Source: Bacteroidales bacterium
GTDB lineage: Bacteria; Bacteroidota; Bacteroidia; Bacteroidales; F082
NCBI GenBank assembly: GCA_017531225.1
Contig: JAFXLL010000003.1
Span: 62,001-126,000 of the forward strand
Direction of reading: 5' to 3'
Length of the DNA stretch: 64,000 nt
Shown here: piece after piece, positions 5,046 through 58,837 of the stretch
How the letters are laid out: every line of letters begins with the position of its first letter
Numbering within the stretch: position 1 is the stretch's first letter
Notes under the pieces: generated by a model
The model's input: the letters and a program-made list of their open reading frames with translations, nothing else
The model's database searches: none
Told to the model about the DNA's origin: nothing
Translations under genes and position numbers: made by a program

Positions 5046-5108
5046 TATTCTACAAATTGAAGATTCATTAGTAAGGGGCAAAAATACGTATTTTTTTCGA
5101 TGAAAATG

Positions 5109-5247
5109 TTGCGGAATCAAAAAAAATGATGTATTTTTGCAATGTCCATTTGCCAAAGCCCTCACATCTTGCTATATTGTGTGTTGGGTGGTTAACGGAC
5201 AGGTCGGGCAAGCGGCTTTGGGGGCGTTGTTGGCAACCCCCTTTTTT
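5109..5247 (+). ncRNA. Candidate small RNA gene 1 (about 100 nt) with promoter and terminator
   Basis: TTG (5109-5111) and TATTTTTG (5132-5139) are separated by 20 nt, the ideal Bacteroidetes spacing, predicting a start near 5145. The transcript can pair CCAAAGCC (5153-5160) with GGCTTTGG (5214-5221) and CTTGC (5168-5172) with GCAAG (5208-5212). It ends in a GC hairpin (GGGG 5221-5224 with CCCC 5238-5241, GTTG with CAAC) followed by TTTTTT at 5242-5247. No ORF fits. An SRP RNA was considered, but the CGGAAGGAAGCA apical motif is absent. It could be an unlisted Bacteroidales sRNA. Confidence 0.5.
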
Positions 5248-5541
5248 ATTTCTCCCAAACCAATTCCATTTTCATCAATTGTTTCAGTCTTGCTGAATGG
5301 ATTGATTTAATCAGCCAGAAGTTTTCGTTCTTGTCGAAATATAAGTGAGCGGCAGCTATGTGACTTGTTTCGTCGGTCTTTACAGCTAAATTAAAACGTT
5401 TGAAGGATTGGCTCGTATTGTATTAGCATTGTCTGGTATTTCAAAATACTCACTTATTTTTGTGATTGCCGACTTGGGGATAAAACCAATTTTTCGGTAT
5501 TGTTTTTCGAGCTTGACTCTATTTTTGCTTTGTTTCGCCAT
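5246..5541 (-). pseudogene. Frameshifted remnant of a small hypothetical protein gene
   Basis: From the ATG at 5539-5541 the minus strand reads MAKQSKNRVKLEKQYRKIGF and on for about 50 codons to a stop. The next frame then continues without a break (KRFNLAVKTDETSHIAAAH, later SARLKQLMKMELVWEK) to a TAA at 5246-5248. The two parts join into one protein of about 98 residues, basic at the start with an amphipathic end, if one frameshift near 5390 is repaired. Family not recognised. The AT-rich composition and isolation suggest decayed accessory DNA at the border of the module to the right. Confidence 0.5.
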
Positions 5542-5662
5542 GAGTGATTCTTTGTTTTAGAGTTTTGCTTGCAAAGATAATTATATTTACTCAAAAACGT
5601 GACATCTATTTAATATTACTAATTAATTTAATTAACGCTTTAAGAAAGATTGCGAAAAAGTG

Positions 5663-5693
5663 TTGAATAATTAGGTGAATATCTGTAACTTTG
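5663..5693 (+). promoter_or_regulatory. Strong Bacteroidetes promoter of the structured leader RNA
   Basis: TTG at 5663-5665, a 20-nt spacer and TAACTTTG at 5686-5693 match the consensus in both boxes and spacing. The predicted start at about 5698-5700 coincides with the first base of a hairpin. No other convincing promoter is seen between here and the nuclease gene at 6031. Confidence 0.7.
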
Positions 5694-5697
5694 CAAT

Positions 5698-5966
5698 CTG
5701 CTTTGAACCACCTTTGGTGGTTTTAAGCAGAACTTATTGACAAAGGCGTTTTCTGGACGCTTTGGTTTTGACGGCTTGAGAATCTCGCAAGTTCAGACTG
5801 TTCGTTAAAAACAAGGCAACGGGAACGCCCCATGTAATGATTATACATCCCTGTATATATCATTTGGCGTGGGGTTTTCAGCGTTGCTCGTTTCTACGAA
5901 CAGGGCAATGCGAGATCCTTCAAGCCGTGGAACGGGTGACAGAACTGGCTCCACGTCTTTTTTCTT
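5698..5966 (+). ncRNA. Candidate 270-nt structured RNA upstream of the NurA/HerA operon
   Basis: The RNA begins at a 5' hairpin (CTGCTT/AAGCAG plus AACCACC/GGTGGTT, 5698-5730), then a second hairpin (GCGT/ACGC, 5741-5764). A long rod follows: 5771-5789 pairs with 5909-5928 in 9 and 8 bp blocks, CTGTTCGT (5798-5805) with ACGAACAG (5896-5903), GCAACG (5816-5821) with CGTTGC (5882-5887), and an apical AATGAT-TATACA arm around loop TCCC. It ends in CGTGGA (5926-5931)/TCCACG (5950-5955) and a T-rich run at 5956-5966. The terminator stem shares three bases with the rod base, so it could be either a discrete RNA or an attenuating 5' leader. Not tmRNA or RNase P; resemblance to 6S RNA is only superficial. 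Confidence 0.6.
5926..5966 (+). terminator. Intrinsic terminator or attenuator ahead of the operon
   Basis: CGTGGA and TCCACG flank an 18-nt loop and are followed by TCTTTTTTCTT. Its 5' arm overlaps the closing base of the long rod (5926-5928), making the two partly exclusive. The operon starts 65 nt downstream, after a perfect 14-nt palindrome ACTCCCATGGGAGT at 6000-6013. Confidence 0.5.
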
Positions 5967-6030
5967 GACTTTTTATGGTTGAGGGAGCCAAACCGACACA
6001 CTCCCATGGGAGTCTTGAGAAGAGACACAA

Positions 6031-7206
6031 ATGAAAATATTGGACTTTATAGAGAAAGACGGTGAAGGAAAGTATTCATGCTACAAAACCAAGAAACTAG
6101 TTCTTGACGAAAAAGACCAAGATACTCTCGATTACGACGACAAACCCGCAATACAACTGAATAGTGCCCAAATTGCCGAGTCCGACATGTCTCGAAAAGA
6201 GACCGTCTTAATCAACGCTCAGATGATGAAGCTAGCCAGCACTCCATTATTTTCATACTTTCTTGACGGATCTCGTCATGTGTATCAAGTGGATGACATC
6301 GCTATCGGAAACCGAATCTTCCCCTTTCTTGCCGGTCAAATCGTTGTAGGTTGCTGTGTAAGAAAAGACAGAGATACTTTTAAACGCCATTCCGTTACGC
6401 ACAAAGTGTTACTTTCCTTACCACGAAACTTCAATTATGATGATGACAAAGAGGCAAATTTCTGCCGCATGTATTGTGAAAAGATAAACGAGGAACTAAA
6501 GAAAAATGCTTTCGTCCAAGAACACGGAATTAAGATTGACAAGATTCTTCTCTATCCCACAGACGGCTCACAAAACATCACTGCAGACAAAAATGGATAT
6601 AAAAACAGCGGAACGGCCAAGATACAGAACGAGATGACCGATGAGGAGCAATTGATGGTTGCTCAATTATGCAAAGACAATTGTTTGGACAACGAGCACT
6701 TCCTTATCAAAGATGGTTCAATTGAATACAACTCCAGTTATTCAAACCTGTCAACCACAGAATGGAATCAACTTCGCTCAAACTACAAGCATGTTGTCGG
6801 AGTGTCCAAGCTGTTTAATCCAGATTTATTAAGAGACTTCAAGGGGCAGAGACTCTCAAAAACCATTGCGAATTTAAAACCTTACGAGCGAACTAAAGTG
6901 TATCGTTACCCTGCCTCCGGTAGCCAATCGGAGTTTGCCATGTGGTATCTGCGGCTTCGCAAAAGCGATTTCCGGGAGACGCATTTCTCTGATGTTGTTA
7001 AGTGCGAAATGGTTATAGAAGAAAAGGGCGGCGTTCTCGACACTCAACTTATAGACCTAATTAGTGCCAATCTTATCCGAGAAGCTTACCCCACGTGTTA
7101 CGGAAAAGACAACAGATGGGCAAATCACCTCTATCCTGTTTTCCTAACCGAAAGCTTCTGCAAATCAAATTATATTAATCAGAATATTATTCTTAATCTC
7201 TTTTGA
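6031..7206 (+). CDS. NurA-like nuclease, first gene of the five-gene module
   Basis: 391 residues. NurA enzymes are RNase H-fold nucleases that act with the HerA hexamer to resect or degrade DNA. Visible signs are an early acidic motif FLDGSRHVY (Asp79), a second KDGSIEYN (Asp228), and HVVGVSKLFNP with Lys260, the usual order Asp...Asp...Gly-Val-x-Lys of NurA. A late LYPVFLTESF segment resembles the family's closing motif. The next gene, one base away, encodes a HerA-like ATPase, the classical partner, which strengthens the call. A weak purine stretch GAGAAGAG precedes the ATG. Membership of PF09376 is by eye; another RNase H-like nuclease remains possible. Confidence 0.6.
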   Translation: MKILDFIEKDGEGKYSCYKTKKLVLDEKDQDTLDYDDKPAIQLNSAQIAESDMSRKETVLINAQMMKLASTPLFSYFLDGSRHVYQVDDIAIGNRIFPFLAGQIVVGCCVRKDRDTFKRHSVTHKVLLSLPRNFNYDDDKEANFCRMYCEKINEELKKNAFVQEHGIKIDKILLYPTDGSQNITADKNGYKNSGTAKIQNEMTDEEQLMVAQLCKDNCLDNEHFLIKDGSIEYNSSYSNLSTTEWNQLRSNYKHVVGVSKLFNPDLLRDFKGQRLSKTIANLKPYERTKVYRYPASGSQSEFAMWYLRLRKSDFRETHFSDVVKCEMVIEEKGGVLDTQLIDLISANLIREAYPTCYGKDNRWANHLYPVFLTESFCKSNYINQNIILNLF

Positions 7207-7207
7207 C

Positions 7208-8875
7208 ATGACCAAGATAATCGGCAAAGTATCCGCAACGGAAAGTTCACCATCAACTATCGATGAGTTCTACTTTTGGACAGACAAACGTCAAATACTA
7301 AGTCCTTTCGACATCGTAAAGGTTGAGCACGAATGCAACTCAACAACCTATGGTGTCATAGAAGAGATAAATCACATAACAGATTCGCCCAGCCACTTTA
7401 CAAGCTACATCTCTAGTGATTTTGGGGCTGTTGATGATAATGTCGGGAACATGAACCGACTTGGGATGAATTATGTGAAAGTCCGTGTTTCATGCAATAC
7501 GCAGAACATCTACACCCCAGTGTTGAATGATCGACGAGTCTCGCTGTGTGATGAGAACGATATCAAGGTTGCACTTGGATTAAGCGAAAAAGACGTTCAG
7601 AATCCTTTGGTGTGTGGTTATTTGCAGATGTATCAAGGTGACGCCTCAATAAAAGTACCCGTTGTCCTAAACTCTCATTTTTTATTGGGACCCGACGGAG
7701 CACACATTAACGTGTCAGGCATTTCTGGACTTGCTGCAAAGACATCATTTTCGATGTTCCTTCTGAAAGCAATTCAAGAAAAGTTCTGCACAGAGAATGA
7801 TGAAACGGTCGCATTTGTGTTTTTCAATGTCAAAGGCAGGGATTTGATGGCAATTGACGAACCAAACACTGAATTATCCGCCAAAGACAAAAAAATCTAT
7901 TCAGACCTGGGGCTTTCGACTCAGCCTTTTGACAATGTCAAATACTATTATCCATACAGCAAAGACAAAGTCACAGCCAATGTACAGAGCTATGCCCAAC
8001 CCGAAGATGTAAAAACGCAAATCAAAGCTGGCAAAGCAAAAAAGTACAAATTCACATACGAAAAATGTATCGAGAAGATTGACCTCCTGTTGGCCAACGA
8101 AGATGACTCCAGCGGGACTCTCGAAAGCTGTGTCAATTACATCATTAACCGGCAAGAGCCTTTCAATGCTGTTGATAGTTGGCCAACACTGCTTGAGAAA
8201 ATTGACGAATGCACTAAGACCGAAGCGAATGGCGGCAAAAAGAACGAGATTATGGTGACCAGCTGGCGCAAGTTTAAAAGATGCGTAAAGAAGGCTATCC
8301 AAAGCAATATCTTCATTTCAAATCTAAATGAAAAGAATGGCGAAATCGACTTGACGGACGAAATAGCAAACAACCTAACCAACGGACAGATTATGGTCGT
8401 TGATATCGCCCGCCTTGATGACAACGCCCAAAGCTTCGTGTTTGGCAGTGTAGCACGTGCCATTTATGATATGAAGTTAGGTGCTGAACGTGACAACATA
8501 CCCGATAAGGTTATTTTGTTTGTTGACGAATTGAACAAATATGCTTCAAGTGACGTTCCTAAGAGCTCGCCTATTCTTCAACAACTACTTGATATTGCCG
8601 AACGTGGCCGCTCCTTGGGTATCATACTGTTCTCTGTCGAACAATTCAGAAGTGCCATCCACGACCGGGTGAAGGGTAATTGCGCCACCCAAGCTTATGG
8701 TCGCACTAACGCAATTGAAGTGTCTAAACCCGACTATCGATATATCCCAAAGGTGTATCAGAATATGATGACCCGATTGAGTCCTGGAGAGTATATTATC
8801 TCAAATCCCGCACTTCGTTCCCTCGTTAATATAAGATTCCCTCGTCCAGTCTATAAACAATATCCCAATGGCTAA
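7208..8875 (+). CDS. HerA-like hexameric ATPase (DUF87/FtsK-HerA class)
   Basis: 555 residues. It begins with a HAS-barrel-like beta domain (about 1-150), then an ATPase core. The P-loop region reads VSGISGLAAKTSF near 170-180; the Gly normally before the Lys is Ala and the loop is one residue longer than GxxxxGKT, so this is a variant Walker A. Walker B VILFVDELNKYA lies near 435-446, followed by a sensor-like SLGIILFSVEQF and an arginine-rich C-terminal strand. HerA translocases pump DNA into or through a nuclease ring. The gene starts 1 nt after the NurA-like stop and overlaps the next gene by 8 nt, implying coupled translation. Confidence 0.8.
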   Translation: MTKIIGKVSATESSPSTIDEFYFWTDKRQILSPFDIVKVEHECNSTTYGVIEEINHITDSPSHFTSYISSDFGAVDDNVGNMNRLGMNYVKVRVSCNTQNIYTPVLNDRRVSLCDENDIKVALGLSEKDVQNPLVCGYLQMYQGDASIKVPVVLNSHFLLGPDGAHINVSGISGLAAKTSFSMFLLKAIQEKFCTENDETVAFVFFNVKGRDLMAIDEPNTELSAKDKKIYSDLGLSTQPFDNVKYYYPYSKDKVTANVQSYAQPEDVKTQIKAGKAKKYKFTYEKCIEKIDLLLANEDDSSGTLESCVNYIINRQEPFNAVDSWPTLLEKIDECTKTEANGGKKNEIMVTSWRKFKRCVKKAIQSNIFISNLNEKNGEIDLTDEIANNLTNGQIMVVDIARLDDNAQSFVFGSVARAIYDMKLGAERDNIPDKVILFVDELNKYASSDVPKSSPILQQLLDIAERGRSLGIILFSVEQFRSAIHDRVKGNCATQAYGRTNAIEVSKPDYRYIPKVYQNMMTRLSPGEYIISNPALRSLVNIRFPRPVYKQYPNG

Positions 8876-10622
8876 TACTCAAAACATAGACAATCCTGTC
8901 ATCGGTATTGATCTATTAAAAATGCTGATGCTGCAACTATACAGCAATCCTCGCTGTATATTTAGAGAATATATCCAAAACGCATTAGACTCAATTAATG
9001 AGGCAGTGAAGATTGGCATATTGCCACGGGTAAAAGATGGTCGTGTGTCAATAAGCATTACCAAGAATGATATTTACATTGAGGATAACGGAACGGGCAT
9101 CCGTCGTGACAAAGCCGTAAAAATTCTGACAGACATAGCTAACAGCGTTAAGAATGGCATTGACACTGCAGGCCAGTTTGGTGTCGGTCGCCTTTCTGGT
9201 GGCGGTTATTGTGAGGTGCTGGAATTTGAAACAACCTATCAGGGGGAAGATATCTCGACGATAGTATCGCTCGACACAAGGATCTTACGTCAACTGATAG
9301 ATAAGAAGCAAACGGATATTTCCGCCGAGGAGGCAATGACGAAAATCTGTACTACTCAAGAGAAGTCTGCCCTAAAAGAAGACCATCGCTTCATTGTTCG
9401 TCTTAAAAACGTCATTAATTCGCGTGAGATTTTGCTTGATATCGACGAGATAAAGAACTACATTACGGAATACGCTCCCATTGATTATTCCGTACCTTTT
9501 AATTCGTTAATCAATAGTTGTGAACAGACCGACTTTGTAAAGAGGCACAAAAGCATAGACAAGATTAGGGTTTCGCTCAATGACCTCTCTGATATCGAGA
9601 AGGGTTATGGCTTGAAGATAGCAGGTACTGGCGACCAAATTGAAAAGATAAGGTATTTTGAGCTTCCCCAACACCCAAAATATGGTCCACTTGGATGGGG
9701 TTGGTACGCGGTAACCGAGTTCTCCGTTCAGATTAACGAAGAAAAAGATAGTTGCGCAGGCATCAGACTACGCAAACACAACATCTCACTTGATAAAAAT
9801 ATTTTAAACACGTGCTTCAAGGAAAGCAGAGGCAACAAGTATTTTTATGGAGAGATTTTTATCACCAACGACAATATTGTTCCTGATAGTGGCAGGCAGG
9901 GACTAGCTGCTGGTGAGGAGGCTGATGCTTTAATAAAAGAGATAAAGAGGTATTTTGCCGAGACGTTACGCCCAGTTTACTATAAGGCTAATAAAATGAA
10001 AACGGCCTTAAATAAGGCTGGAGAAGTGATCGGTAAACTCAACAACCCAGAATTTGCTAATGCTGTTGGTCCTCTTACCGACAAACTCAAAGAACACATA
10101 GAAGAATTCAAAAAAGCGACCACCCCAGATAGCAAAGAGGAAATCAACGATGTGATATCCATTTATACGAATAAATACAATTCTGGACTCAAAGCCGATG
10201 TAGAAAAATATCTCGTTCCCAAACAATCTCCCAAAGAGACCGAACCCGATATTCTTGATATGGTTGCGAAACCAACGGTCAACAACCCCACCGAACCTGT
10301 TGCCGCAGGAAAACCACAAAATCCCCACACTCCAGAAACGGAACCGCAAACAACACTCCCCACCAGCAACCCAGCCCCGCAACCCAAAACAAAGAGTTCG
10401 GACACTCAAAAACCCGTTTCTACCCCATCACCAACACAATCAAATCCCAATCGACCTAAATCACAAGTGGACGAAATATTGTCCCCGCTTGAAGGAAAAA
10501 ATATTAGCCCCGAACAGACTGCCATCTTGAAACGGGTATTCAGTACAATGCTTGTTGTTTGTCCTTCTTCCAACAAGAAAAATGTAATCCTGCTTATGGA
10601 AGCAGCTGTGAATAGTCTCTGA
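8868..10622 (+). CDS. Hsp90-like GHKL ATPase (HtpG-related)
   Basis: 584 residues. The N-terminal Bergerat fold has the N box EYIQNALDS (Glu34, Asn38), the G1 motif EDNGTGI (Asp73) and the lid/G2 motif GQFGVG (102-107). A middle domain follows with GIRLRKHNISLDK, equivalent to the HtpG catalytic-loop region. After about residue 440 there is a long Pro/Thr-rich linker (roughly 455-530), then a short helical end, so the normal HtpG dimerisation domain is replaced. GHKL ATPases of this kind (MORC-like, MutL-like) occur with HerA-type motors in phage-defence loci. It overlaps the HerA gene and ends 7 nt before the radical SAM gene. Confidence 0.8.
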   Translation: MANTQNIDNPVIGIDLLKMLMLQLYSNPRCIFREYIQNALDSINEAVKIGILPRVKDGRVSISITKNDIYIEDNGTGIRRDKAVKILTDIANSVKNGIDTAGQFGVGRLSGGGYCEVLEFETTYQGEDISTIVSLDTRILRQLIDKKQTDISAEEAMTKICTTQEKSALKEDHRFIVRLKNVINSREILLDIDEIKNYITEYAPIDYSVPFNSLINSCEQTDFVKRHKSIDKIRVSLNDLSDIEKGYGLKIAGTGDQIEKIRYFELPQHPKYGPLGWGWYAVTEFSVQINEEKDSCAGIRLRKHNISLDKNILNTCFKESRGNKYFYGEIFITNDNIVPDSGRQGLAAGEEADALIKEIKRYFAETLRPVYYKANKMKTALNKAGEVIGKLNNPEFANAVGPLTDKLKEHIEEFKKATTPDSKEEINDVISIYTNKYNSGLKADVEKYLVPKQSPKETEPDILDMVAKPTVNNPTEPVAAGKPQNPHTPETEPQTTLPTSNPAPQPKTKSSDTQKPVSTPSPTQSNPNRPKSQVDEILSPLEGKNISPEQTAILKRVFSTMLVVCPSSNKKNVILLMEAAVNSL

Positions 10623-10629
10623 TATTGTA

Positions 10630-12606
10630 ATGGGAAGACCAAAAGCAAGAAAAAAAGTACTGCTCATAGAGCCCAACTATTCCAACAAGTTTCCACCGAT
10701 AGGGTTGATGAAGCTGGCAACCTATCACAGAAATCTTGGCAACTGGGATGTGGTCTTCTATAAAGGCGATTTGGTCATGTTTGTAATTGACCGTATCACC
10801 GACAGGTGTATTGCCGATCTTCTGCTTATCGACAACTCTATTGATTGGTCTATCAGGAAAGATAAAATCTTTGAGTATATCAAAACTAGAAAGCGAGATG
10901 TGTTTGAATCTATCGGAATTGAAGATTCCGACTTTTCTTTGTTGCTGAGCGGGAAGCTGGACGATTACAAAAACTATTACTGGAAAGGCATTTGGAAAAA
11001 AGAGCCTGAATGGGATAGAGTATGCGTAACAACACTCTTCACTTTCTATTGGGACATCACAGTTGAAACAATCAACTTCGCCAAATTGCTCGTTAAGAAA
11101 AAGAAAGACCTGAATGTCGGCGGGGTATTGGCTTCAATTCAGCCACAACAGCTATATGAAGCCACAGGAATTAAGCCATCTGTAGGTGTGCTCAACAAAC
11201 CTGGACAACTCGACAAGGGCGATACTCAGATAATCGATGAACTTCCTTTAGACTACTCCATTCTCGATGAGATTGATTACAAATACCCCATGTCCAATGC
11301 CTTTTATGGTTATATGTCACGAGGATGTATCCGTCATTGCGCTTTCTGTGCAGTGCCGACATTAGAGCCTGTATACAATCCCTACATTACTTTGACAGAT
11401 AGAGTTAATGGTATCAGAAATCGTTATGGTGACCAAAAGGATTTGCTGCTAATGGATAACAATGTGCTGGCTTCAGAACGCTTTGAAGATATCATTGACG
11501 AAATCAAATCATGTGGTTTTGGCCGTGGAGCCAAGTTTTCTCAACCGAATCTGCTTGAAATTGCAATTAGAAATCTACGTGACGGGTGGAACGATAGAGC
11601 ATACATTCGAAAGACTCAATCGCTGATGAGCGAGTTCTATGAGTGCCTTTCAAACAAAGAGGAATCTTATGCGGTGTATTGCATTCTCGAAAAGTATCAC
11701 ATCAAGAAACTAATCACCTCAAAGAAAGAGAACCTTTTGGCCGCATACGATGAGATTAAACCCTACTATGAAAAGCACTTCCATCCTATTTTAAAGCAAC
11801 GGTATGTGGATTTTAACCAAGGAGTGGATGCGCGTTTGTTTACAGAGAAAAAAGCACGCCTGTTGGCATCAATAGCAATACGGCCTTTGCGCATTGCTTT
11901 TGATGACATAAAGACTCGTCCCGCATACGAAAAGGCAGTGAGATTAAGCGTTAGTGCTGGTATCAAAGACTTTTCTAACTATCTGCTCTATAATTTCAAA
12001 GACGAACCCATAGACCTGTATCGTCGATTAAGAATCAACGTGGATTTATGCGAAGAATTGAACGTGAACATCTATTCGTTCCCAATGAAATATCACCCTT
12101 TGTATGGGGCAAACAGTCATGATAGAGACTATATTGGTCAGCATTGGAACCGGAAATTTATTCGCGCCATTCAAGCTATATTGAATAGCACAAAAGGCAA
12201 AGTAGGCAAAGGTTTTGAGTTCTTTGGTGAAGCTTTTGGCCATACAGAAGAAGAATACCTTGAACTGCTTGAAATGCCAGAAACATTTATACTTTATCGA
12301 TTCTTCTTCAAATGGCTCGATGAGAAAAACGGCCGTGGTACAGAACATTGGCGGAGTTTGTGGCATCACTGCAAAGAGAAAATGACCGAATCGGAGTGGA
12401 ATAGAGTTCAGGAGGTAATACACACAAACGTATTTGATGTCAATGTCATTCATAATTTCTCCGACAATGAAGTAAGAGATTTATTGCAGTGCTATGTAAA
12501 CTACCGAAAAGACATTGTTACCGAAGGCACCGAACTTTATATGTTAAAGAAGGAATACGACCAGCACCCAACAAAAAAGTTGCGGAGAAAGGGGTGTCAT
12601 GGCTGA
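10630..12606 (+). CDS. Radical SAM protein with N-terminal B12-binding-like region
   Basis: 658 residues. The start KVLLIEPNYSNKFPPIGLMK resembles the Rossmann-like N-terminus of B12-dependent radical SAM enzymes, but no clear DxHxxG cobalamin ligand motif is seen. The iron-sulfur triad is CIRHCAFC (Cys233, Cys237, Cys240), preceded by GYMSRG, which is typical of this class. A DNNVLAS strand follows, and the C-terminal 250 residues are helical and unassigned. It could modify nucleic acid, protein or a small molecule; nothing visible picks one. It overlaps the next gene by 8 nt. A radical SAM enzyme inside a nuclease/translocase operon is unusual. Confidence 0.8.
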   Translation: MGRPKARKKVLLIEPNYSNKFPPIGLMKLATYHRNLGNWDVVFYKGDLVMFVIDRITDRCIADLLLIDNSIDWSIRKDKIFEYIKTRKRDVFESIGIEDSDFSLLLSGKLDDYKNYYWKGIWKKEPEWDRVCVTTLFTFYWDITVETINFAKLLVKKKKDLNVGGVLASIQPQQLYEATGIKPSVGVLNKPGQLDKGDTQIIDELPLDYSILDEIDYKYPMSNAFYGYMSRGCIRHCAFCAVPTLEPVYNPYITLTDRVNGIRNRYGDQKDLLLMDNNVLASERFEDIIDEIKSCGFGRGAKFSQPNLLEIAIRNLRDGWNDRAYIRKTQSLMSEFYECLSNKEESYAVYCILEKYHIKKLITSKKENLLAAYDEIKPYYEKHFHPILKQRYVDFNQGVDARLFTEKKARLLASIAIRPLRIAFDDIKTRPAYEKAVRLSVSAGIKDFSNYLLYNFKDEPIDLYRRLRINVDLCEELNVNIYSFPMKYHPLYGANSHDRDYIGQHWNRKFIRAIQAILNSTKGKVGKGFEFFGEAFGHTEEEYLELLEMPETFILYRFFFKWLDEKNGRGTEHWRSLWHHCKEKMTESEWNRVQEVIHTNVFDVNVIHNFSDNEVRDLLQCYVNYRKDIVTEGTELYMLKKEYDQHPTKKLRRKGCHG

Positions 12607-15250
12607 GAGCATTCAAACATATTGCGAAAAAAGGAGAACTGTCACTTATAGTCAGGAAAGCAAGAGGCTATTTGAAATCCTTTTTGATGATTTATCTATA
12701 AGAGCCCAACACACACTAATCAATAATGACATAAACAGCATAGAGGACCTAATGCCATGGATAGAAGGCGAGTTTCAAGGTTTTATGCAATTTAAAAAAT
12801 GTGGCAGACACACTTCGGAGGAACTAATGGCGATGGTTCTCTATTTGAGGAAAACAGTTGAGCTTTTAACGCAACCAATTATTGAAGGCAGCTTGGAAAA
12901 CAAAGAGTCTCATAACTTAGAGAAGGGCGTAGAATTGCACAATGAGGGTAGAGAAGAAGATGCTGTAAAAAGAAATGAATGCGCACTAGTAGAAACAAAA
13001 ACCGATAAATCCGCTGAAAGTGACAGGAAGACATTTGATTTTCTTTTTAATGCCTTATCTATTAGGGCCCAAAATATACTTAGATACCATAACATAAACT
13101 GTATTGAAGATCTCGCTCCTTGGATTAAAGGTGAGTCTAATAGTTTTTTGAAGTTTAGGAATTGCGGAAAACGCACTTCTGAAGAACTTATGGAAATGGT
13201 GCTCTATTTGAGAGCAAAGGTTGACTTATCATGTCAATTTGATAGTGAAAGCGCACTAATGAATCAAGGGAAAAAACAGTCTTTACTTGATACTATAACT
13301 AAAGCTAGCGAAAACAAAATACAATCGCAAAGACAATTTGATAGATTGTTTAATTCGCTAACTGTTAGGACAAGGAATGTACTGTGCATAAATGGAATTT
13401 TAGATTGTGAATCACTCTTAACCCTTGCCTCCAAGCCCGTTTTAGAAATAATGAAATTACGCAAATGCGGAAAGAAAACAGTACAAGAATTGTTGGAAGC
13501 CGCAAACAGACTTCAGAAAATAATTAATGAAGCTGGGCCGGAGGACGAAGTATCGATTTTCCCATTTGATGGTATTATTCAGTTTGATGAAGGCATCCAA
13601 AACTATTTGACTATGTTTAAAAAAGAACACGGTCATTGGCCAATGGTGTTTGTTCTTTTTAGTACAATAAAATCCCTCCTCAAACCTCGTGAATTTGCCG
13701 CATTTGAAGACAGGTATGGAATATGGAAACATGAAGAATTGGAAGAATTATCCAAACAAAGAGTTCATCAGATATTCGAAAGAACTGTCGAGAAGCTTTA
13801 TAAGGATATTGCTCTCAAAAAGCTATGCGAACATGAAGATTGGAGTTTATACAATGTGAATATTATTCCGGTTCCGTTTTCCAACAATGAAGATAATAAT
13901 CGAATATGGTGGGAAGTCGAACAAATGATTGCAAATGAGAAGTGTTTTTTGAAGAATTGTTTTTGTGATAATGTGTCATATGAGAGTCAGTTTAAAACGC
14001 AATTAGAACTATTGTCTCATATCAATATATCATCGTTCAAAGCTTTATTGCTGTTATTTGGACACCTCCCTCTGTGGCAGGGGAGAAATTGCTTGGTTCC
14101 ATATTGCCCACAAGAAAAAAAAGGATATTATGATCCCCTATCTCCAATTGTGATTGATAAACGTTACGTATTTTTCAATTTTAACAAGGCATTTTCAGAA
14201 ATAGGTCGATTGAAAAAAGTTAAGAAAGATAATGATATTATTCTTTCTGTTGAAAAATATTTTGTTGAAAATGAGGATTATTGGAAACGATCTATTTGCT
14301 TATCCGACGTAGATAAAACTGTTTTTGTGTCGTTATTGAAAAAGATATTTAGGAAATTCTTTTCTGCAATTATTGTTGATGACAATTTGATTTTTAAGGC
14401 TAACAGAATTGATTTTAGCGAAAAACTATACGAGATACTATCAATTGAGGGAACAAGATTACACCGTGACGAACTATTCATAAGGCTAAAAAAAGTATGT
14501 AACGAAAATGGGCTTCGTTGCGATTACTCTAAGCCTTCACAAATAATTCCTTTTCTCGTTAAGGATTCACGGATCGTTTCCTATGGAAAGTCATCATATT
14601 GGGGACTAAAAGAGTGGGGTGAAACATACGGCAGTATTCGAGAGCTGGCTCTTCGTATGATGAAAGAATCAACGGAACCCATCCATATTGACGCTCTAAC
14701 CAAACTCATCATGGAAAGCCGACCTGATTCTAATGAAAAAAGCATATCGTCAATCATAAGACAAACAACATCGACTGGGGAACTCCTACTATTTTGGGGT
14801 GATTATATTGGTTATCCTAATGGAAAATTTAATCACGAGTTTATCTTAATGCCTCGTTCATTCGACGAATGGTTAAAGGCATTCAAAGAATTTGTTTTAA
14901 AAAATAAAAGATACCCTAACAATAACAAAGATTTTGAGGGCTTCCTTAACAGGTGGTATCAAAGGGCGATTAAGCTGACAGATCTTTCTGCCGAAGAAAT
15001 ACTTAAAATCGACGCATTAGAAAAAGAACTCACTCATTATCCTCACAATGCTATAGAAAACAATTTCCTTCACAAGTGCAACCTATACAAGAAATTTGTA
15101 GAGGGTAATAATCGTATGCTTGAAGAAACTGATGATCCCAAACTGTTTAAATGGTTTTATAATGCTAGTCTAAACTATATTACATATAAAGATAACCGAA
15201 GTAGTTATTTTAGCCAACTTCTCCAGTTTTTATCAAAAACACTATTATAG
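12599..15250 (+). CDS. Large protein with alpha-CTD-like HhH repeats, sigma-4-like and HARE-HTH-like segments
   Basis: 883 residues. Three related blocks (about 20-92, 144-215, 240-312) share a pattern LSIRAQNIL...IEDLAPW...KCGRHTSEEL, as in the RNA polymerase alpha C-terminal domain that binds DNA. Around 371-405, EELEELSKQRVHQIFER resembles sigma-70 region 4. Near 601-680 and 678-740 are two winged-helix segments with hallmarks of HARE-HTH (TRLHRDELFIRL..., YGKSSYWGL, and a diverged repeat). The remainder is unassigned. The composition implies a DNA-binding or promoter-sensing subunit of the module. Base composition is more AT-rich than the housekeeping genes to the right, suggesting transfer. 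Confidence 0.65.
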   Translation: MAESIQTYCEKRRTVTYSQESKRLFEILFDDLSIRAQHTLINNDINSIEDLMPWIEGEFQGFMQFKKCGRHTSEELMAMVLYLRKTVELLTQPIIEGSLENKESHNLEKGVELHNEGREEDAVKRNECALVETKTDKSAESDRKTFDFLFNALSIRAQNILRYHNINCIEDLAPWIKGESNSFLKFRNCGKRTSEELMEMVLYLRAKVDLSCQFDSESALMNQGKKQSLLDTITKASENKIQSQRQFDRLFNSLTVRTRNVLCINGILDCESLLTLASKPVLEIMKLRKCGKKTVQELLEAANRLQKIINEAGPEDEVSIFPFDGIIQFDEGIQNYLTMFKKEHGHWPMVFVLFSTIKSLLKPREFAAFEDRYGIWKHEELEELSKQRVHQIFERTVEKLYKDIALKKLCEHEDWSLYNVNIIPVPFSNNEDNNRIWWEVEQMIANEKCFLKNCFCDNVSYESQFKTQLELLSHINISSFKALLLLFGHLPLWQGRNCLVPYCPQEKKGYYDPLSPIVIDKRYVFFNFNKAFSEIGRLKKVKKDNDIILSVEKYFVENEDYWKRSICLSDVDKTVFVSLLKKIFRKFFSAIIVDDNLIFKANRIDFSEKLYEILSIEGTRLHRDELFIRLKKVCNENGLRCDYSKPSQIIPFLVKDSRIVSYGKSSYWGLKEWGETYGSIRELALRMMKESTEPIHIDALTKLIMESRPDSNEKSISSIIRQTTSTGELLLFWGDYIGYPNGKFNHEFILMPRSFDEWLKAFKEFVLKNKRYPNNNKDFEGFLNRWYQRAIKLTDLSAEEILKIDALEKELTHYPHNAIENNFLHKCNLYKKFVEGNNRMLEETDDPKLFKWFYNASLNYITYKDNRSSYFSQLLQFLSKTLL

Positions 15251-15294
15251 AAAAAAAACACAATGGTTTCGAATTCGTTTAAGGTATTTGAATC

Positions 15295-15783
15295 ATGAAC
15301 CAACATTTAGAGTTTTACAATTACTTCACCAATTTCTCCCACTACACCGATCGCATCCAAAACCTCCGCCAGGCCAAAATCCGTGGTGAAATCATCGTAG
15401 CCAAGCCGGCTCTACTTCTTGCTTTGATTGATGGTATCGAAGCAGGTGTCTTCCGTGATAATCGCTTCACACTGAACGAATGGCTGGAAAAACACTATCT
15501 GTCACTGATGCGTCAGTATACCCGTCACTCTCAGTTCGACAAACCAACAGACATCAACAATCCTTTCTGGCACCTTGCCACTGACGGTTTCTGGCATCTT
15601 CAACTCAGAACAGAAGCTGGAAGAGGGGAGACCCCTTCAAAAGCATGGCTCAGGGATAATGTTGTGTGTGCTCGTCTTGACGATGACTTGTGGGTGTTGC
15701 TCCAAAGTCTGGAATGGCGGAACCGCCTGCGTGACTTCATTGTGAGCCATAGGCTTCAGGATAATAATCCAAAGAAGGTTTAG
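15295..15783 (+). CDS. Small protein resembling the N-terminal head of ScoMcrA-like HNH endonucleases
   Basis: 162 residues. The pattern KPALLLALIDGIEAGVF, then LEKHYLSLMRQY, then NPFWHLATDGFWHL, matches the domain found ahead of HNH in modification-dependent restriction enzymes such as ScoMcrA. There is no HNH and the protein ends shortly after, so it is either a stand-alone specificity/regulatory subunit or a truncated relic. It lies 44 nt behind the big DNA-binding gene and could belong to the same transcript, but its codon usage is closer to the core genome. The family call is tentative. Confidence 0.5.
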   Translation: MNQHLEFYNYFTNFSHYTDRIQNLRQAKIRGEIIVAKPALLLALIDGIEAGVFRDNRFTLNEWLEKHYLSLMRQYTRHSQFDKPTDINNPFWHLATDGFWHLQLRTEAGRGETPSKAWLRDNVVCARLDDDLWVLLQSLEWRNRLRDFIVSHRLQDNNPKKV

Positions 15784-15786
15784 TGT

Positions 15787-15813
15787 CTTGATGTGCAATT
15801 TTTGCACTTCAAG
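15787..15813. promoter_or_regulatory. 27-bp palindrome upstream of the ORF6N gene (copy 1)
   Basis: CTTGATGTGCA and TGCACTTCAAG face each other across a 5-nt spacer, 10 of 11 positions complementary. A second copy lies inside the ORF6N gene at 16119-16145. It may be an operator for that gene's product or the terminator hairpin of the gene before it; no T-run follows, which favours an operator. Confidence 0.5.
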
Positions 15814-15858
15814 TTTAACGGTTTTCCAAAGAAGTTGAAATTATTCATATTAATTAAT

Positions 15859-15890
15859 TGCTATATATAAAATATTGTTGTTACCTTTGC
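15859..15890 (+). promoter_or_regulatory. Promoter of the ORF6N gene
   Basis: TTG (15859-15861), a 21-nt spacer and TACCTTTG (15883-15890). The ATG at 15913 is 22 nt downstream of the -7 box. This separates the gene transcriptionally from the module before it. Confidence 0.6.
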
Positions 15891-15912
15891 TGACTTAATT
15901 GTTTGCAAGGAT

Positions 15913-16875
15913 ATGGAAGATAACAGTTTGGTGGCTCTAACCGAAGAATACCTGATGTCGAAAATCTACGTCATTAGGGGAGTCCAAGTGATGCTCGATG
16001 TGGATTTGGCAGCTATTTATGGATATACCACAAAAAATTTTAATCGTCAAGTTAAAAACAATATTGATCGTTTCGATGATGATTTTAGATTTCAACTTAC
16101 AGATATAGAAGTGAATATCTTGAGGTGCAAAAACTGCACCTCAAGTTGGGGCGGCGCTAGATACCTTCCTTATGCTTTCACGGAGTTGGGGATTTATGCG
16201 CTTATGATGGTCCTAAAAGGCAATCTTGCTATTGACCAAAGTAAGAAACTCATAAGGTTGTTTAAAAAATTGAAAGATTATGCCTTTCAAATCCAAAATA
16301 TATTGCCTTCTTCCGATATGCGAACGCTCGCAATCCAAACCCAACGTAACACTGAAGACATCCGACAGATACAACAACAGGTCAATGACCTTACCATTGT
16401 GGTCAAGGACTTCACCGATCCCAACATCAAAAAGGACTACCTTTTCTATAATGGCCAAACTGTTGAAGCTGATTTGGCGTATGCCGAGATCTATTCATAC
16501 GCTAAGAAAACGATTCATGTCATCGATAATTACATTAGCCTGAAAACGTTAGTTCTATTGAAATCAGTTTCGGCGGGGGTAAGGGTCGTTGTTTTCAGCG
16601 ACAACGTGAATCATGGTCTCCATCCGACCGAGTTAGCTGATTTTAAACGAGAATATCCAAATGTTGACATTACCCTGAAACCCTCAGGTGGGATTTATCA
16701 CGATCGTTACATATTCATTGATCACGGAACACCAAACGAAATGATTTTTCACTGCGGAGGTTCATCAAAAGATGGAGGTAGACGGATTACCTCCATTAGC
16801 CGAGTCGAGGATGTAAAGCTTTATCAAAACATCATCAGTGATTTGGAGGTTCGTCAATCCACCTTGTCAATGTAA
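15913..16875 (+). CDS. ORF6N-domain protein with C-terminal PLD-like domain
   Basis: 320 residues. Residues 10-110 form an ORF6N (KilA-N-related) DNA-binding domain: [17 protein letters not shown]...[21 protein letters not shown] and the conserved [12 protein letters not shown] short coiled linker follows (120-165). The C-terminal part has [16 protein letters not shown] and CGGSSKDGG, a degenerate phospholipase-D/HKD-like fold common in such fusions. ORF6N proteins are phage- and mobile-element-linked regulators. It has its own promoter and a palindrome upstream that recurs inside the coding sequence. Its 3' end overlaps convergent parE by 22 nt. Confidence 0.85.
16119..16145. repeat. 27-bp palindrome inside the ORF6N gene (copy 2)
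   Basis: CTTGAGGTGCA and TGCACCTCAAG are perfectly complementary across a 5-nt spacer. The arms differ from copy 1 at one base. It encodes the segment [10 protein letters not shown] of the ORF6N domain. Confidence 0.6.
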
Positions 16876-54268: not shown

Positions 54269-56302
54269 ATGAAAACAAGGATTATCATCACCATCATTGC
54301 AATGCTGTTTGGGCTACAGGTTTATGCACAAGACGTAAAACGCCCAGACACCTATTATTATAATAGAGGTATTGAATGCCTTCGCGAAGGAAAAGATTCT
54401 GATGCTTATGACTATTTTGAGAATGAAGTGCGTGATAATCCAAAGAATGGATACGCCCATACTTGGATGGCTTATATACTATATAACAATGAACTTTATG
54501 GCGACGCACTAGCATCTTTGGAAAAAGCAGAAAAGAACGTTCCAAGAAAAGACAAGGAATTTGTCGGCTATGTGCTATCACTACGAGGAGATGTATACTA
54601 TGCTTTGGAAGAAAACGACAAAGCATTGGAGTGTTATGGGAAAGCCATTAAGACAAGCCCTAAAGATACAAATCTTTGGGATCGACGAGCTCAACTTTAT
54701 TATGAGATCGGGGAATACGACCTGTCGGACAAAGACTATGACAAAATCATTGAATTAGATCCTTCGGGGGTGATGGGCTATATGGGTAAAGGGCGTAATG
54801 TCAAAATGCAGAATAGATACGAAGATGCCATCGGTTATTTCAATCAAGTGGCAAAACTACATGGCAAAGATTATTCGTCCTGCTACTCTTTCCGAGCTGA
54901 AGCATACGCCGGATTGAAACAATATGAGAAAGCAGCTGACGACATCATTACTGCTTTAAGTATTGATGGCGACGACAAAGCCTTCCATTTATTGGGTAGC
55001 GTAATGGCAGACTCAGCCTCCACTATAATGACTTCAAAGCTTAAAATCCAACAACTGAAAGAGCCAAATAACTATTATTGGCCTTATTGTTCTGGAATTG
55101 TTTATGAAGAGAGTGCCAATTATAACAAAGCCATTGAATGTTACAAAAAATCAAATGAGATAAACACCACGAGCTTGACCTATGGAAGAATAGCATCTTG
55201 TTATGCGGAATTGGGCGACTATCAAAATGCAATACGTTCCATAGACCAAGCAATCCAAATGGAGCCTGACAAGACAATCAACAAATTATACAAATCCAAC
55301 TACGAGTACGATGCAGGCATGACTGACGCTGCTCTTGCCGACATAGACGCATGTATAGTCGAAGTTCCTGATTTTTACTATTTCCATTACCGAAAAGGAT
55401 TCTTTGAAGATAATCTGAACATGACTGACGAAGCTATTGAGGATTATTCGACTGCCATTCTTCTCAACCCTGATTACTTTTACTCAAATCTTGGTCGAGG
55501 AGATATGTATTCAAAAAAAGGAATGCAAAAAGAAGCTATGGATGATTACAGAACTGTTGTAAGCAAAGACACTATACCATCTACTGGTTCCTGCGCACAA
55601 TATGCTTATTTTGCTTTAGGCGAGAAAGACAAAGCTATTGCATTCAACCAACGTATCATTGATTCATTTCCTAATGACCCAAGTAGCTATTATGATGCGG
55701 CATGTCTGTATTCCAGAATGGGAGAAAATGGACAAGCCATTGACTACCTAAGAACTTCGCTTGAAAAAGGTTATCGTCGCATTGCGCACATAGAGCGCGA
55801 TGACGACCTTGACGTTTTACGAGATACGAAGGAATACCAAGATTTGATTTCAGAATATAAGGCAAAATATACTATAAATGATACCCAAGAACACATTTTA
55901 CAAGAGAATATAGAAGTCGAAATACCTTTCACCAAAGCGAATGGCGTTACAGAAGTACAATGCACCATCAATGGATTACCATTGCATTTTGTGTTTGACA
56001 CGGGGGCAAGTGACGTAACCATGTCGATGGTGGAGGCCACTTTCATGCTGAAGAACAAATATCTAACTCCCTTGGATGTGGTCGGAAAGCAAAATTACCT
56101 CACTGCCGACGGAAACGTCAGCGAGGGTACCATCATCAACCTTAAATCTGTGAAGATAGGTGACCTTGAACTGACCAATGTCCGGGCTTCGGTGGTAAAG
56201 AGCCAAAATGCTCCTCTTCTACTCGGCCAAAGTGTGTTGGGCAGGTTGGGAAAGATTGAGATTGACAATGAGAAGAGGGTGATTAAGGTGACGGGAAAAT
56301 GA
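54269..56302 (+). CDS. Periplasmic TPR protein with C-terminal retropepsin-like aspartyl protease
   Basis: 677 residues. Signal peptide MKTRIIITIIAMLFGLQVYAQ. About 12 TPR-like units fill residues 30-540 (for example YYYNRGIECLREGKDSDAYD, DYQNAIRSIDQAI, YFALGEKDKAIAF). From about 550 comes an aspartyl protease domain of clan AA: VEIPFTKANGVTEV, LHFVFDTGASDVTMS (Asp-Thr-Gly), then PLLLGQSVLGRLGKIEIDN. Single-domain retropepsins act as dimers. First gene of the operon. It may sense or cut misfolded envelope proteins; that role is inferred. Confidence 0.8.
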   Translation: MKTRIIITIIAMLFGLQVYAQDVKRPDTYYYNRGIECLREGKDSDAYDYFENEVRDNPKNGYAHTWMAYILYNNELYGDALASLEKAEKNVPRKDKEFVGYVLSLRGDVYYALEENDKALECYGKAIKTSPKDTNLWDRRAQLYYEIGEYDLSDKDYDKIIELDPSGVMGYMGKGRNVKMQNRYEDAIGYFNQVAKLHGKDYSSCYSFRAEAYAGLKQYEKAADDIITALSIDGDDKAFHLLGSVMADSASTIMTSKLKIQQLKEPNNYYWPYCSGIVYEESANYNKAIECYKKSNEINTTSLTYGRIASCYAELGDYQNAIRSIDQAIQMEPDKTINKLYKSNYEYDAGMTDAALADIDACIVEVPDFYYFHYRKGFFEDNLNMTDEAIEDYSTAILLNPDYFYSNLGRGDMYSKKGMQKEAMDDYRTVVSKDTIPSTGSCAQYAYFALGEKDKAIAFNQRIIDSFPNDPSSYYDAACLYSRMGENGQAIDYLRTSLEKGYRRIAHIERDDDLDVLRDTKEYQDLISEYKAKYTINDTQEHILQENIEVEIPFTKANGVTEVQCTINGLPLHFVFDTGASDVTMSMVEATFMLKNKYLTPLDVVGKQNYLTADGNVSEGTIINLKSVKIGDLELTNVRASVVKSQNAPLLLGQSVLGRLGKIEIDNEKRVIKVTGK

Positions 56303-56329
56303 AATTTCGAATGATATACTGTAATTAAC

Positions 56330-57904
56330 ATGCTTAACATAATAACAAACAACCCATTCCGAATACTTGGCGTTTATTCCAACGCCAAACCGGCCGAAAT
56401 TGTGTCGAATTGCGACGATATGGAGGCGTATTTGAGCATAGGGCAAAATGTTGAATTCGACTTGGACTTGAACAACCTGATGCCCAATGTGGTGCGCACC
56501 GTCAAAACCGTTGCCGATGCCAAAAAGCAAATCAACTTGCCGAAGGACAAACTGAAGTACGCGCTGTTTTGGTTTGTGAAAGACAATTCGTCGGCTCATG
56601 CCATGAACTATCTGAAAAGTGGCGATTTCAACAACGCCAACGACGTTTTTGAGATAGAAGACTCATTTGCCACGCGCATTAACAAGGCCGTGATAGCCTT
56701 GATTCGAAACGATTTAGGCGTAGCCATCGCCAATGTGGCCGAATTGATACATGACTTTGATGATTTGGGACTACGTGACAATTTCGTAAAAACCATTTGT
56801 GGCGATGCGTTTTCAATAACAGAAGAGGAGCTTGCGCACCTATATATAGATACACTTCTCGAAGAAGTGGATGCTGCGGAACTGCTCGAACTGTTCAAGG
56901 AGAACAGCGTTTCGCAGGATGATGATGATTATCTGGAAGGAAAAGTTGTTGACAAACCTATTTCCAGAATCAATGCCGAAATTGCTAAAGCGAAATCTGT
57001 ACAACAGGACGATGTCGATGCCAATTATCGGGCAGGCAAAGAACTCATGAAAAACACAAAGGCGGACTTGGCAAAAGTGAAAAGCCTTCTGGTTGCAACC
57101 GATATGCAGTACCAAATGCTTGCCGATGGCTTGGCTAATGCTATTATGCAATGTGGTATAAACTATTACAATGCTTCGGAAGATAACGATAAGATTGAAA
57201 AAGCTTTGGAATTGCTAGAATACGCTAGCAAAATTGCAACTGGAAAAATATGTAAGGAAAGGTGTAATAAGAATATAGAGAGTTTAAAAACAGAGCTGGA
57301 AAATGCTGCACCTTTAAATGTTCGGAAAGAAGATTTCAACATCAAACAAGCTTTGGTTGAATTTAGTAAAAAGCCACATAAGATTTCCCATTCCATTGAA
57401 TTGATAAAGGCTTGTGCGCCAATTTTGTTGAAAATAAAAGAGACGCTTGGTAAAGATGATCCATACTATTTGAAGATGTCAACATTGATAGTTAGTGTAG
57501 CTCTCAGTTATGTGATAGAAGAAGTAAACATAATTCAAAATAGACCTTTTACTAATCCTGACGACATAAGACCTATTGTCCAAAAAGCCTGGTGTGCAAT
57601 GGGTGATATGAATAAACTAGATATGGAGTCTGATTTTAGAAATAATAGATTTAATACCAACTGGAAAACATTGAAGTCATTGGCTATTCGTTATGGAGTA
57701 GTGAGAGAAACAGAAGATTATGGATGGGCTTTCATAATAGGAGCAATATTGATTCATTTGATATATGGTCTGCTGTTTATGAATACAAAAGATGGCTTTT
57801 GGGGCGGGGTCGGTATTGGCCTATTTGGTTGGCTTATTCAAATTAATTTTCTTGTCTTAAAAGGCGTTTTTTGGATAATAGACAAAATTAGAGGAATTAA
57901 ATGA
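56330..57904 (+). CDS. J-like N-terminal domain membrane protein
   Basis: 524 residues. The N-terminal NPFRILGVYSNAKPAEI, followed by helices and KYALFWFV near residue 80, resembles degenerate J-domain proteins of Hsp70 systems, but the HPD tripeptide is missing. The centre (90-430) is helical. Two C-terminal transmembrane helices (AFIIGAILIHLIYGLLF, then GVGIGLFGWLIQINFLVL) anchor it. Probably a membrane partner of the Hsp70 three genes downstream. Overlaps the next gene by 4 nt (ATGATG arrangement). Confidence 0.55.
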   Translation: MLNIITNNPFRILGVYSNAKPAEIVSNCDDMEAYLSIGQNVEFDLDLNNLMPNVVRTVKTVADAKKQINLPKDKLKYALFWFVKDNSSAHAMNYLKSGDFNNANDVFEIEDSFATRINKAVIALIRNDLGVAIANVAELIHDFDDLGLRDNFVKTICGDAFSITEEELAHLYIDTLLEEVDAAELLELFKENSVSQDDDDYLEGKVVDKPISRINAEIAKAKSVQQDDVDANYRAGKELMKNTKADLAKVKSLLVATDMQYQMLADGLANAIMQCGINYYNASEDNDKIEKALELLEYASKIATGKICKERCNKNIESLKTELENAAPLNVRKEDFNIKQALVEFSKKPHKISHSIELIKACAPILLKIKETLGKDDPYYLKMSTLIVSVALSYVIEEVNIIQNRPFTNPDDIRPIVQKAWCAMGDMNKLDMESDFRNNRFNTNWKTLKSLAIRYGVVRETEDYGWAFIIGAILIHLIYGLLFMNTKDGFWGGVGIGLFGWLIQINFLVLKGVFWIIDKIRGIK

Positions 57905-58821: not shown

Positions 58822-58837
58822 AACACAATAAGGAAAC

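Follow-up and report, generated by a model that had tools for sequence, protein, structure and literature searches.

The window, i.e. the whole stretch of 64,000 nucleotides that was analysed, carries a horizontally acquired island which is probably a mobile anti-invader system, most likely directed against phages. At its centre are four genes that encode a NurA-like nuclease, a HerA-like translocase, a GHKL ATPase and a radical SAM (rSAM) enzyme. No named system in PADLOC, NCBIfam or Pfam fits these genes, in line with the first-pass annotation, and judging from the sequence the island probably encodes an unnamed, undescribed antiviral machine. The protein module and the leader RNA in front of it were also undescribed in our literature searches, which covered no preprints and few subscription papers. 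The first-pass annotation had proposed an undescribed defence complex of five genes. Genes of this set do co-occur elsewhere, fit no named system and are located on an acquired island; the five-gene composition did not hold, and the defence role is one that we infer. If this is true, the island represents a type of defence common in Bacteroidota in which a DNA pump-nuclease is joined with a radical enzyme, and it suggests a DNA or protein modification so far unknown in immunity.

The five tightly packed forward-strand genes at 6031-15250 are seen in the list of open reading frames with the spacing that had been claimed for them: in order, a 1-nt gap, an 8-nt overlap, a 7-nt gap and an 8-nt overlap. 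Beyond these the island continues to genes 6 and 7, and a structured RNA lies 5' of gene 1. The features are as follows:

5046..16853, no strand: acquired island, its bounds being the ends of the flanking genes
5686..5693, + strand: promoter element TAACTTTG, presumed Bacteroidota-type -7 element, with a TTG ~20 nt upstream by reading
5694..5963, + strand: structured leader RNA with two hairpins at the 5' end, a long one in the centre and a terminator hairpin
5926..5963, + strand: intrinsic-terminator-like hairpin and T run at the 3' end of the leader, not listed by a simple terminator scan
6031-7206, + strand: gene 1, likely NurA-like nuclease (391 aa)
7208-8875, + strand: gene 2, HerA-like hexameric translocase (555 aa)
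8868-10622, + strand: gene 3, GHKL (Hsp90/MORC-like) ATPase (584 aa)
10630-12606, + strand: gene 4, rSAM enzyme (658 aa)
12599-15250, + strand: gene 5, probable lineage-specific DNA reader (883 aa) with three alphaCTD (HhH) repeats and an HTH-like C-terminal half
15295-15783, + strand: gene 6, stand-alone sulfur-binding domain (SBD)
15913-16875, + strand: gene 7, ORF6N protein assigned to PDC-S05, a candidate family in PADLOC

As single-protein queries, genes 1 and 4 returned nothing from the PDB and nothing or weak matches from Pfam, PADLOC and NCBIfam, and profiles built from their relatives were used. Gene 1 alone had no match at E ≤ 1 in any of these four collections. Its profile reached the NurA chain 7f6d_H weakly (E 0.016, covering 257-347), and D79, E206, D228 and H366 were invariant in all 75 length-filtered copies. 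This weak similarity and the invariant Asp/Glu/Asp/His positions suggest that gene 1 is likely a NurA-like nuclease and may have an RNase H-like fold. Gene 2 matched HerA (1.6e-5) and mad8 (9.5e-8) in PADLOC, and its profile found Deinococcus HerA (7f6d_B) with an E value of 1.5e-53; at E ≤ 0.1 the Deinococcus HerA-NurA complex was the only match of this profile in the PDB. K178, T179, D212, D440 and E441 were invariant in 77 of 77 copies. The Walker A Lys/Thr, the Walker B Asp/Glu and the catalytic Asp are all present and align with K175/T176, D487/E488 and D220 of drHerA, which are named in the available part of PMC9960219. The profiles of both genes thus point to the same solved complex, HerA strongly and NurA weakly, in agreement with the initial assignments.

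For gene 3 the GHKL assignment was confirmed by matches to HATPase_c_3 in Pfam (1.7e-9) and to an HSP90-type model in NCBIfam (4.4e-12). The ATP-site residues were invariant in 76 of 76 copies and the protein is the most divergent core subunit. Gene 4 can be called a radical SAM enzyme, as had been read from the sequence, on the basis of the PHROG family phrog_9298 (4.5e-40), of PF04055, which was found at E ≤ 0.1 in 45 of 45 aligned proteins of the family (the window protein at 0.025, below the curated cut-off), and of a CxxxCxxC motif whose C233, C237 and C240 were invariant in 87 of 87 copies. At the N-terminus 26 of the 45 aligned proteins showed the B12-binding domain PF02310 at E ≤ 0.1 (best 3.9e-7). 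The window's own rSAM gave no match to this domain, which we counted against a defence role, and by eye DxHxxG, the classic B12-binding motif, was not seen in the rSAM consensus. Weak NCBIfam matches (0.011 and 0.045) and the SBD of gene 6 also led us to consider sulfur insertion of the MiaB/RimO type by gene 4. MiaB/RimO methylthiotransferases have three further cysteines for a second cluster; the rSAM family has no invariant Cys besides C233, C237 and C240 (C474 is nearly invariant), and we set this reading aside because the extra invariant cysteines are absent.

A scan for rSAM relatives in a collection of 84,980 species returned 543 stretches, of which the best 80 were examined. NurA, HerA, GHKL and rSAM occurred together in this order, with gaps of a few nucleotides, in 65 of the 66 related loci having enough upstream sequence, and this recurrence indicates that the grouping is more than chance. 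The first-pass annotation had named a lack of co-occurrence elsewhere as one of two findings that would refute its reading; as the four core genes do travel together in other genomes, this objection falls away. The divergences of the core genes are also correlated, with distance-matrix correlations of 0.78-0.97 across 74 loci compared with permutation maxima of at most 0.122. The distribution is patchy: a strong HerA match was found in 5 of 395 genomes, all five of which also have a full-length rSAM, and the rSAM was found in 11 of the 295 genomes of the order (own genome included) and in none of three congeners. We encountered three exceptions, which we counted against the defence reading: one locus (L102) has the rSAM and none of the other three core genes, one genome (G260) has, on a short contig, a fragment of the rSAM but no HerA, and one (G183) has a HerA-NurA pair without rSAM.

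The fifth gene behaves differently from this core. Genes of its type were found in 24 of the 80 loci (the best 80 of 543), and because in most of the 80 other genes take its place or it was not observed, the five-gene module proposed earlier is not supported: the conserved unit comprises four genes and the fifth is an exchangeable, lineage-specific add-on. Its description as an alphaCTD/HARE protein stood for the first part, with three RNA-polymerase alphaCTD stretches in Pfam (4.8e-11), and the HARE part is hinted at by DUF7669 (0.011) and RNAP delta (0.059). In two loci (L037 and L039) the C-terminal domain of the gene 5 relatives resembles a sulfur-binding domain. The genes after the rSAM are exchangeable across loci in general and some are from defence-like families. 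In the window, gene 6 matched NF045808 (2.6e-8, N-terminal part only) and the solved SBDHga1 structure 8h0l (3e-10) and is too short to include an HNH nuclease as well, and gene 7 is an ORF6N protein of the candidate defence family PDC-S05. Genes 1, 4, 5 and 6 had no PADLOC match at E ≤ 1, which we also counted against defence.

The island measures 11.8 kb and is AT-rich, with a GC content of 0.397 compared to 0.52 outside. It lies between an oligopeptidase-like gene and a ParE-like gene (named by eye), and in congener G592 the same two genes are only ~25-35 bp apart. The island is thus horizontally acquired, and the chromosomal site of its insertion is empty in this congener. In the flanks of related loci PADLOC reported, at E ≤ 1e-15, 135 families for 148 proteins compared to 6 for 77 control proteins, where the counts refer to families and not to proteins, PDC-S05 contributes many of them and the sample includes the genes right after the rSAM. 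We favour defence because the core is conserved in order with correlated divergences, the distribution is patchy and the site is empty in a congener, and because the flanks are rich in PADLOC matches, gene 7 belongs to PDC-S05, gene 6 is an SBD and the leader precedes defence-like genes elsewhere. HerA-DUF4297 (available part of PMC11291478) adds to this as a tested HerA-nuclease defence.

We compared the island with the closest known systems. Besides HerA-DUF4297, HerA-SIR2 is a further HerA anti-phage system; the island differs from both in its NurA-like partner and two additional enzymes, and neither DUF4297 nor SIR2 was matched by genes 1-7 in Pfam, PADLOC or NCBIfam. What is shared with HerA-DUF4297 is a HerA hexamer with a nuclease partner (PMC11291478, as far as available). 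In the case of Deinococcus radiodurans HerA-NurA (7f6d) the likeness extends over two stretches of the HerA profile, with the same variant Walker A (GISG..KTSY) and a common DELNKYA Walker B, and next door there is a putative NurA partner with a weak profile match. However, the available part of PMC9960219 describes it as a repair, end-resection complex, a point we counted against defence, and mentions no GHKL or radical SAM partner. The HerA/FtsK and BREX-related capture systems likewise occupy mobile neighbourhoods with HerA, a nuclease and DNA-reading HTH proteins (Rakesh, Aravind and Krishnan 2024 and NAR 2026; available parts of PMC10853773 and PMC12839542), whereas genes 1-7 have no ORC/Cdc6, PglZ, REase or TGT match in Pfam, PADLOC or NCBIfam; in the main texts of both papers, as available, the words NurA and GHKL are absent, and radical SAM in PMC10853773 refers to DndC only. 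Phosphorothioate-dependent restriction enzymes (SBD-HNH) share the SBD, but gene 6 is an SBD alone with no HNH match. We rejected a Dnd-type sulfur mark as what gene 6 reads, the own genome having no DndC (TIGR03183) match at E ≤ 0.001. MADS differs in that among genes 1-7 only gene 2 touched a mad model (mad8, 9.5e-8). Adjacent rSAM and GHKL homologues also occur in an alphaproteobacterial plasmid module for which we found no name, where DGQHR, ParB-like, helicase and PIN-like neighbours replace NurA-HerA.

Spore photoproduct lyase is a radical SAM enzyme that reverses a DNA lesion, and core repair genes are usually not patchy, inserted or found with exchangeable neighbours. A double-strand-break repair operon, with end resection by HerA-NurA, a MutL/Hsp90-like role of the GHKL protein and lesion reversal by the rSAM, would agree with the one PDB match of the HerA profile, an end-resection complex (PMC9960219, in part). 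The patchy occurrence, the absence from three congeners, the AT-rich insert and the exchangeable, partly defence-like genes after the rSAM make this unlikely. We also regard as improbable that the genes are a machine of phages, plasmids or integrative elements for DNA processing, marking of their own DNA or counter-defence. Two IMG/VR contigs and one phage scaffold of unverified status do carry complete operons, HerA and NurA of Marinitoga camini virus 1 have a short homologue of the rSAM next to them, and rSAM-GHKL adjoins a DGQHR protein on all four alphaproteobacterial plasmids examined (of 12 records with a match). However, the IMG/VR contigs may include host DNA, and none of the island's seven genes is a recognised phage-structural, integrase or conjugation gene in the ORF list, Pfam or PADLOC (flanks elsewhere were sampled only). 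A toxin-type or signalling module, with an effector peptide or protein as the substrate of the rSAM and with NurA-HerA as an abortive-infection effector, seems very improbable: a radical SAM domain was proposed to modify a peptide effector in another conflict system (available part of PMC7159879), but the core genes, with gaps of a few nucleotides, lie too close together for a separate small ORF to fit in between.

Under the defence reading, and going by the protein families, the HerA hexamer would, as its Deinococcus counterpart does, pump DNA into a dimer of the NurA nuclease, and the GHKL ATPase may license this nuclease by working as an ATP-gated clamp or switch. The rSAM could chemically alter DNA or a partner in the complex, by methyl transfer if B12 is truly used, and so mark self or arm the complex. 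In this lineage genes 5 (alphaCTD/HTH) and 6 (SBD) might choose the target by reading a DNA sequence or modification, and other lineages would use different add-on genes. Rather doubtful in our view is a more specific scheme of rSAM-based, restriction-modification-like immunity, in which rSAM and GHKL would write a DNA mark, the SBD and alphaCTD would read it, HerA-NurA would destroy DNA lacking or bearing it and an attenuator RNA shared by several unrelated Bacteroidales defence operons would switch the system on.

The leader RNA is newly recognised and belongs to a family without an Rfam match (4227 models, searched with the window and six loci holding leader homologues). It follows TAACTTTG at 5686..5693, which we take to be a Bacteroidota-type -7 element, a promoter type outside the range of the sigma-70 promoter scan. 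The 270-nt leader folds with an MFE of -116.9 (z -9.0). Covariation was strong, with two-sided changes in 28 of 83 pairs and none of 500 shuffles as high; for this count the window fold was mapped onto the alignment, and the share of paired cells leans to that fold. RNAalifold gave a different fold on the gap-rich alignment. An antiterminator pairing of columns 219-230 with 265-276 can form in 97.6% of cells (whole alternative fold 96.3%). We treat it as a candidate since its covariation was not above that of the shuffles, a point counted against the defence reading. The leader may keep the operon mostly off via termination and allow read-through when the central hairpin is disturbed, and would then offer a handle on how Bacteroidales switch such islands on. 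Because the family was found at 9 of 81 rSAM loci, we rejected a leader universal to these loci, and counted this too against defence. Of 69 regions lying upstream of NurA, 13 had very stable folds (best z below -6), compared to 2 of 75 control regions (Fisher p 0.002). The leader also stands 5' of twelve other operons that we read, six with defence-like genes and six without a PADLOC match, with a spacing of 54-74 nt in 7 of the 12; the genes behind it include a restriction-modification pair, two HKD+Snf2 helicases, a GajB-like gene and candidate defence genes.

The first-pass annotation had joined five + strand genes (6031-15250) into one module. The order of the first four (NurA-like, HerA-like, GHKL and radical SAM, rSAM) recurred elsewhere, whereas the fifth was often replaced. 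We scanned an rSAM alignment against genome contigs, obtained 543 stretches with relatives and fetched the best 80 (51-90% identity). Of these, 66 extended 5.3 kb or more beyond the rSAM start and were therefore testable. NurA, HerA and GHKL preceded rSAM in order and on the same strand in 65 of the 66, successive genes being separated by a median of 1, 1 and -4 nt; the exception, L102, carried rSAM alone. All three genes were also present in 4 of the 14 loci with shorter upstream sequence. In a separate check we searched 395 genomes of the phylum twice, for rSAM and for HerA. Full-length rSAM occurred in five (G000, G277, G371, G140 and G185) and strong HerA matches (E < 1e-248) in the same five. 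The rSAM search gave three more matches, two weak ones and a fragment in G260, which lacked HerA; a sixth, weaker HerA match in G183 lay near a NurA-like gene without rSAM. On contig L183 (2486-7074) a 428-aa ORF on the opposite strand, perhaps an insertion element, breaks the HerA gene. L082 and L182 each have GHKL split into two ORFs; being of equal length, they may be one contig.

Gene 5 or a relative was found by BLAST in 23 of the 80 loci, or 24 if we count L039, whose first part aligns to gene 5. The tested alternatives in its place were a Schlafen-AlbA protein, a reverse transcriptase, another GHKL protein or an unknown protein. Gene 5 is thus an add-on to the core. In L016-L018 additional genes lie between the first GHKL and rSAM. 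As the gene-5 relatives in L037 and L039 bear a domain resembling gene 6, the two genes are tied together. A second family of 206-356 aa recurs after rSAM (L068, L070, L071, L074, L076, L081, L085, L089, L090 and L101); its L068 member had no Pfam match at E ≤ 0.01.

Within the window, gene calling reproduced the five ORFs with the positions, gaps and overlaps originally given, and showed gene 3 to encode a GHKL ATPase and gene 5 to contain three RNA-polymerase alphaCTD-type stretches. Searched singly in Pfam, PADLOC, NCBIfam and PDB sequences, gene 1 had no match at E ≤ 1 and gene 4 only weak ones, which is why the locus looks nameless; against PHROG, gene 4 matched a radical SAM family (E 4.5e-40). 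Genes 6 and 7 are part of the same insert. Gene 6 consists of a sulfur-binding domain on its own (NF045808, E 2.6e-8; solved SBDHga1, 8h0l, E 3e-10), and gene 7 encodes an ORF6N protein that falls in the PADLOC candidate family PDC-S05 (E 3.5e-98).

We surveyed residues in length-filtered copies including the window (75 NurA, 77 HerA, 76 GHKL and 87 rSAM), and each tested active-site residue was invariant in all of them. Median pairwise identities were 0.40, 0.54, 0.29 and 0.53, respectively. The distance matrices of the four genes correlated at 0.78-0.97 across 74 loci (permutation maxima ≤0.122); these uncorrected values include a contribution from shared species history. Against PDB sequences, a profile of 28 HerA proteins matched only Deinococcus HerA at E ≤ 0.1 (7f6d, E 1.5e-53), including the unusual Walker A GISG..KTSY, and a profile of 38 NurA proteins matched only the NurA of that complex at E ≤ 1, weakly (E 0.016). 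For Deinococcus HerA, ATP and metal binding is assigned to K175/T176 and D487/E488, and catalysis to D220 (PMC9960219); K178/T179, D440/E441 and D212 of the window protein align with them. All 45 rSAM proteins matched PF04055 at E ≤ 0.1, and 26, the window's not among them, matched PF02310 (B12 binding). Only three cysteines are invariant in the rSAM alignment, which makes a further cluster of the MiaB/RimO type improbable.

The island is flanked by a ParE-like and an oligopeptidase-like gene (named by eye), with 11.8 kb between them in the window and ~25-35 bp in the congener G592. The island has a GC content of 0.397 compared to 0.52 on both sides. Of 295 genomes searched in the order, 11 have rSAM, the window's own genome counted; three congeners lack it. 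At E ≤ 1e-15, 148 of 153 flanking proteins from related loci, genes right after rSAM included, gave 135 PADLOC families, redundant and thus support rather than a rate, compared to six for 77 control proteins drawn from random regions in six genomes. We favour defence over repair because of the patchy distribution, the island location, the exchangeable cargo and the neighbours. A known HerA-nuclease defence pair, DUF4297-HerA, can abort phage infection (PMC11291478). The most likely mechanism starts with HerA pumping DNA into NurA, by analogy with the Deinococcus complex; beyond that, GHKL would act as a gate, rSAM would modify a target, the leader RNA would limit expression and substrate choice would fall to the add-on genes 5 and 6.

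The region before gene 1 contains the following features:

5686: promoter element TAnnTTTG, upstream of the leader RNA
5694-5963: leader RNA, 270 nt, between promoter element and gene 1 (MFE -116.9 kcal/mol, z -9.0)
5926-5963: terminator hairpin and T run, 3' end of the leader RNA

An alignment of 14 leader copies supports the fold, as 28 of 83 pairs showed two-sided changes and the covariation score (0.269) exceeded all 500 shuffles (0.152, sd 0.008); slid folds reached at most 0.097. An antiterminator could form if the terminator's 5' arm paired with the conserved 3' arm of the central hairpin (12 pairs, 97.6% of cells); this pairing showed no covariation above shuffles. The RNA matched no Rfam family. 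Very stable folds also lie upstream of gene 1 in L031, L035, L057, L085, L086 and L099 (best z -6.65 to -15.58), none matching the window's leader family.

By BLAST, 31 of the 295 genomes matched the leader at E ≤ 0.01, its own included and many weakly; among the matches listed, only its own locus lay at an rSAM operon found in those genomes. A leader HMM detected it at 9 of 81 rSAM loci (the window, L024, L028, L030, L037, L039, L048, L049 and L050), some of the 81 ending before the leader point. In all twelve BLAST-matched places away from rSAM operons that were read, in nine genomes (L201-L212), it preceded a same-strand ORF; the distance was 54-74 nt in seven and ranged from -1 to 275 nt elsewhere. 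We scanned twenty proteins 3' of these copies, taking in L208 the methylase rather than the small ORF before it. Six matched PADLOC at E ≤ 1e-15 (an MTase-REase pair, two HKD+Snf2 helicases, PDC-S31 and PDC-M45B) and one further protein was GajB-like (5.6e-15). Six of the twelve operons had no PADLOC match at E ≤ 1e-5. The six control families probably represent three proteins, in which case Fisher's p is 0.002. The leader is common to unrelated Bacteroidales operons, six of the twelve read having PADLOC-like genes.

The nearest surveys (PMC10853773 and PMC12839542) describe HerA/FtsK capture systems. A keyword search of both main texts found neither NurA nor GHKL, and radical SAM only in connection with DndC, in PMC10853773. 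Our incomplete coverage of the literature yielded no published description of the protein module or the leader RNA. On this basis we regard the operon as a new variant among HerA-nuclease systems, one whose radical enzyme is unexplained. The RNA is apparently an undescribed family.

Outside Bacteroidota, among 12 matching records, the four alphaproteobacterial plasmids that we opened all carried rSAM-GHKL homologues together with a DGQHR protein. On viral contigs rSAM adjoined GHKL in 12 of 23 loci examined (50 fetched), a count that includes two full operons (L103, L104) and one locus in reversed order (L106). Plasmid modules of this alphaproteobacterial kind and similar viral-contig loci (L010-L013, L110-L116), for which we found no name, vary in gene set (ParB-like, helicase, DGQHR, rSAM, GHKL, PIN-like). 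A second AT-rich stretch of the window (54269-63073, GC ~0.39-0.43) encodes, all on the + strand and named by eye only, TPR/aspartyl-protease-like, Hsp70-like (58838-61336) and smaller proteins.
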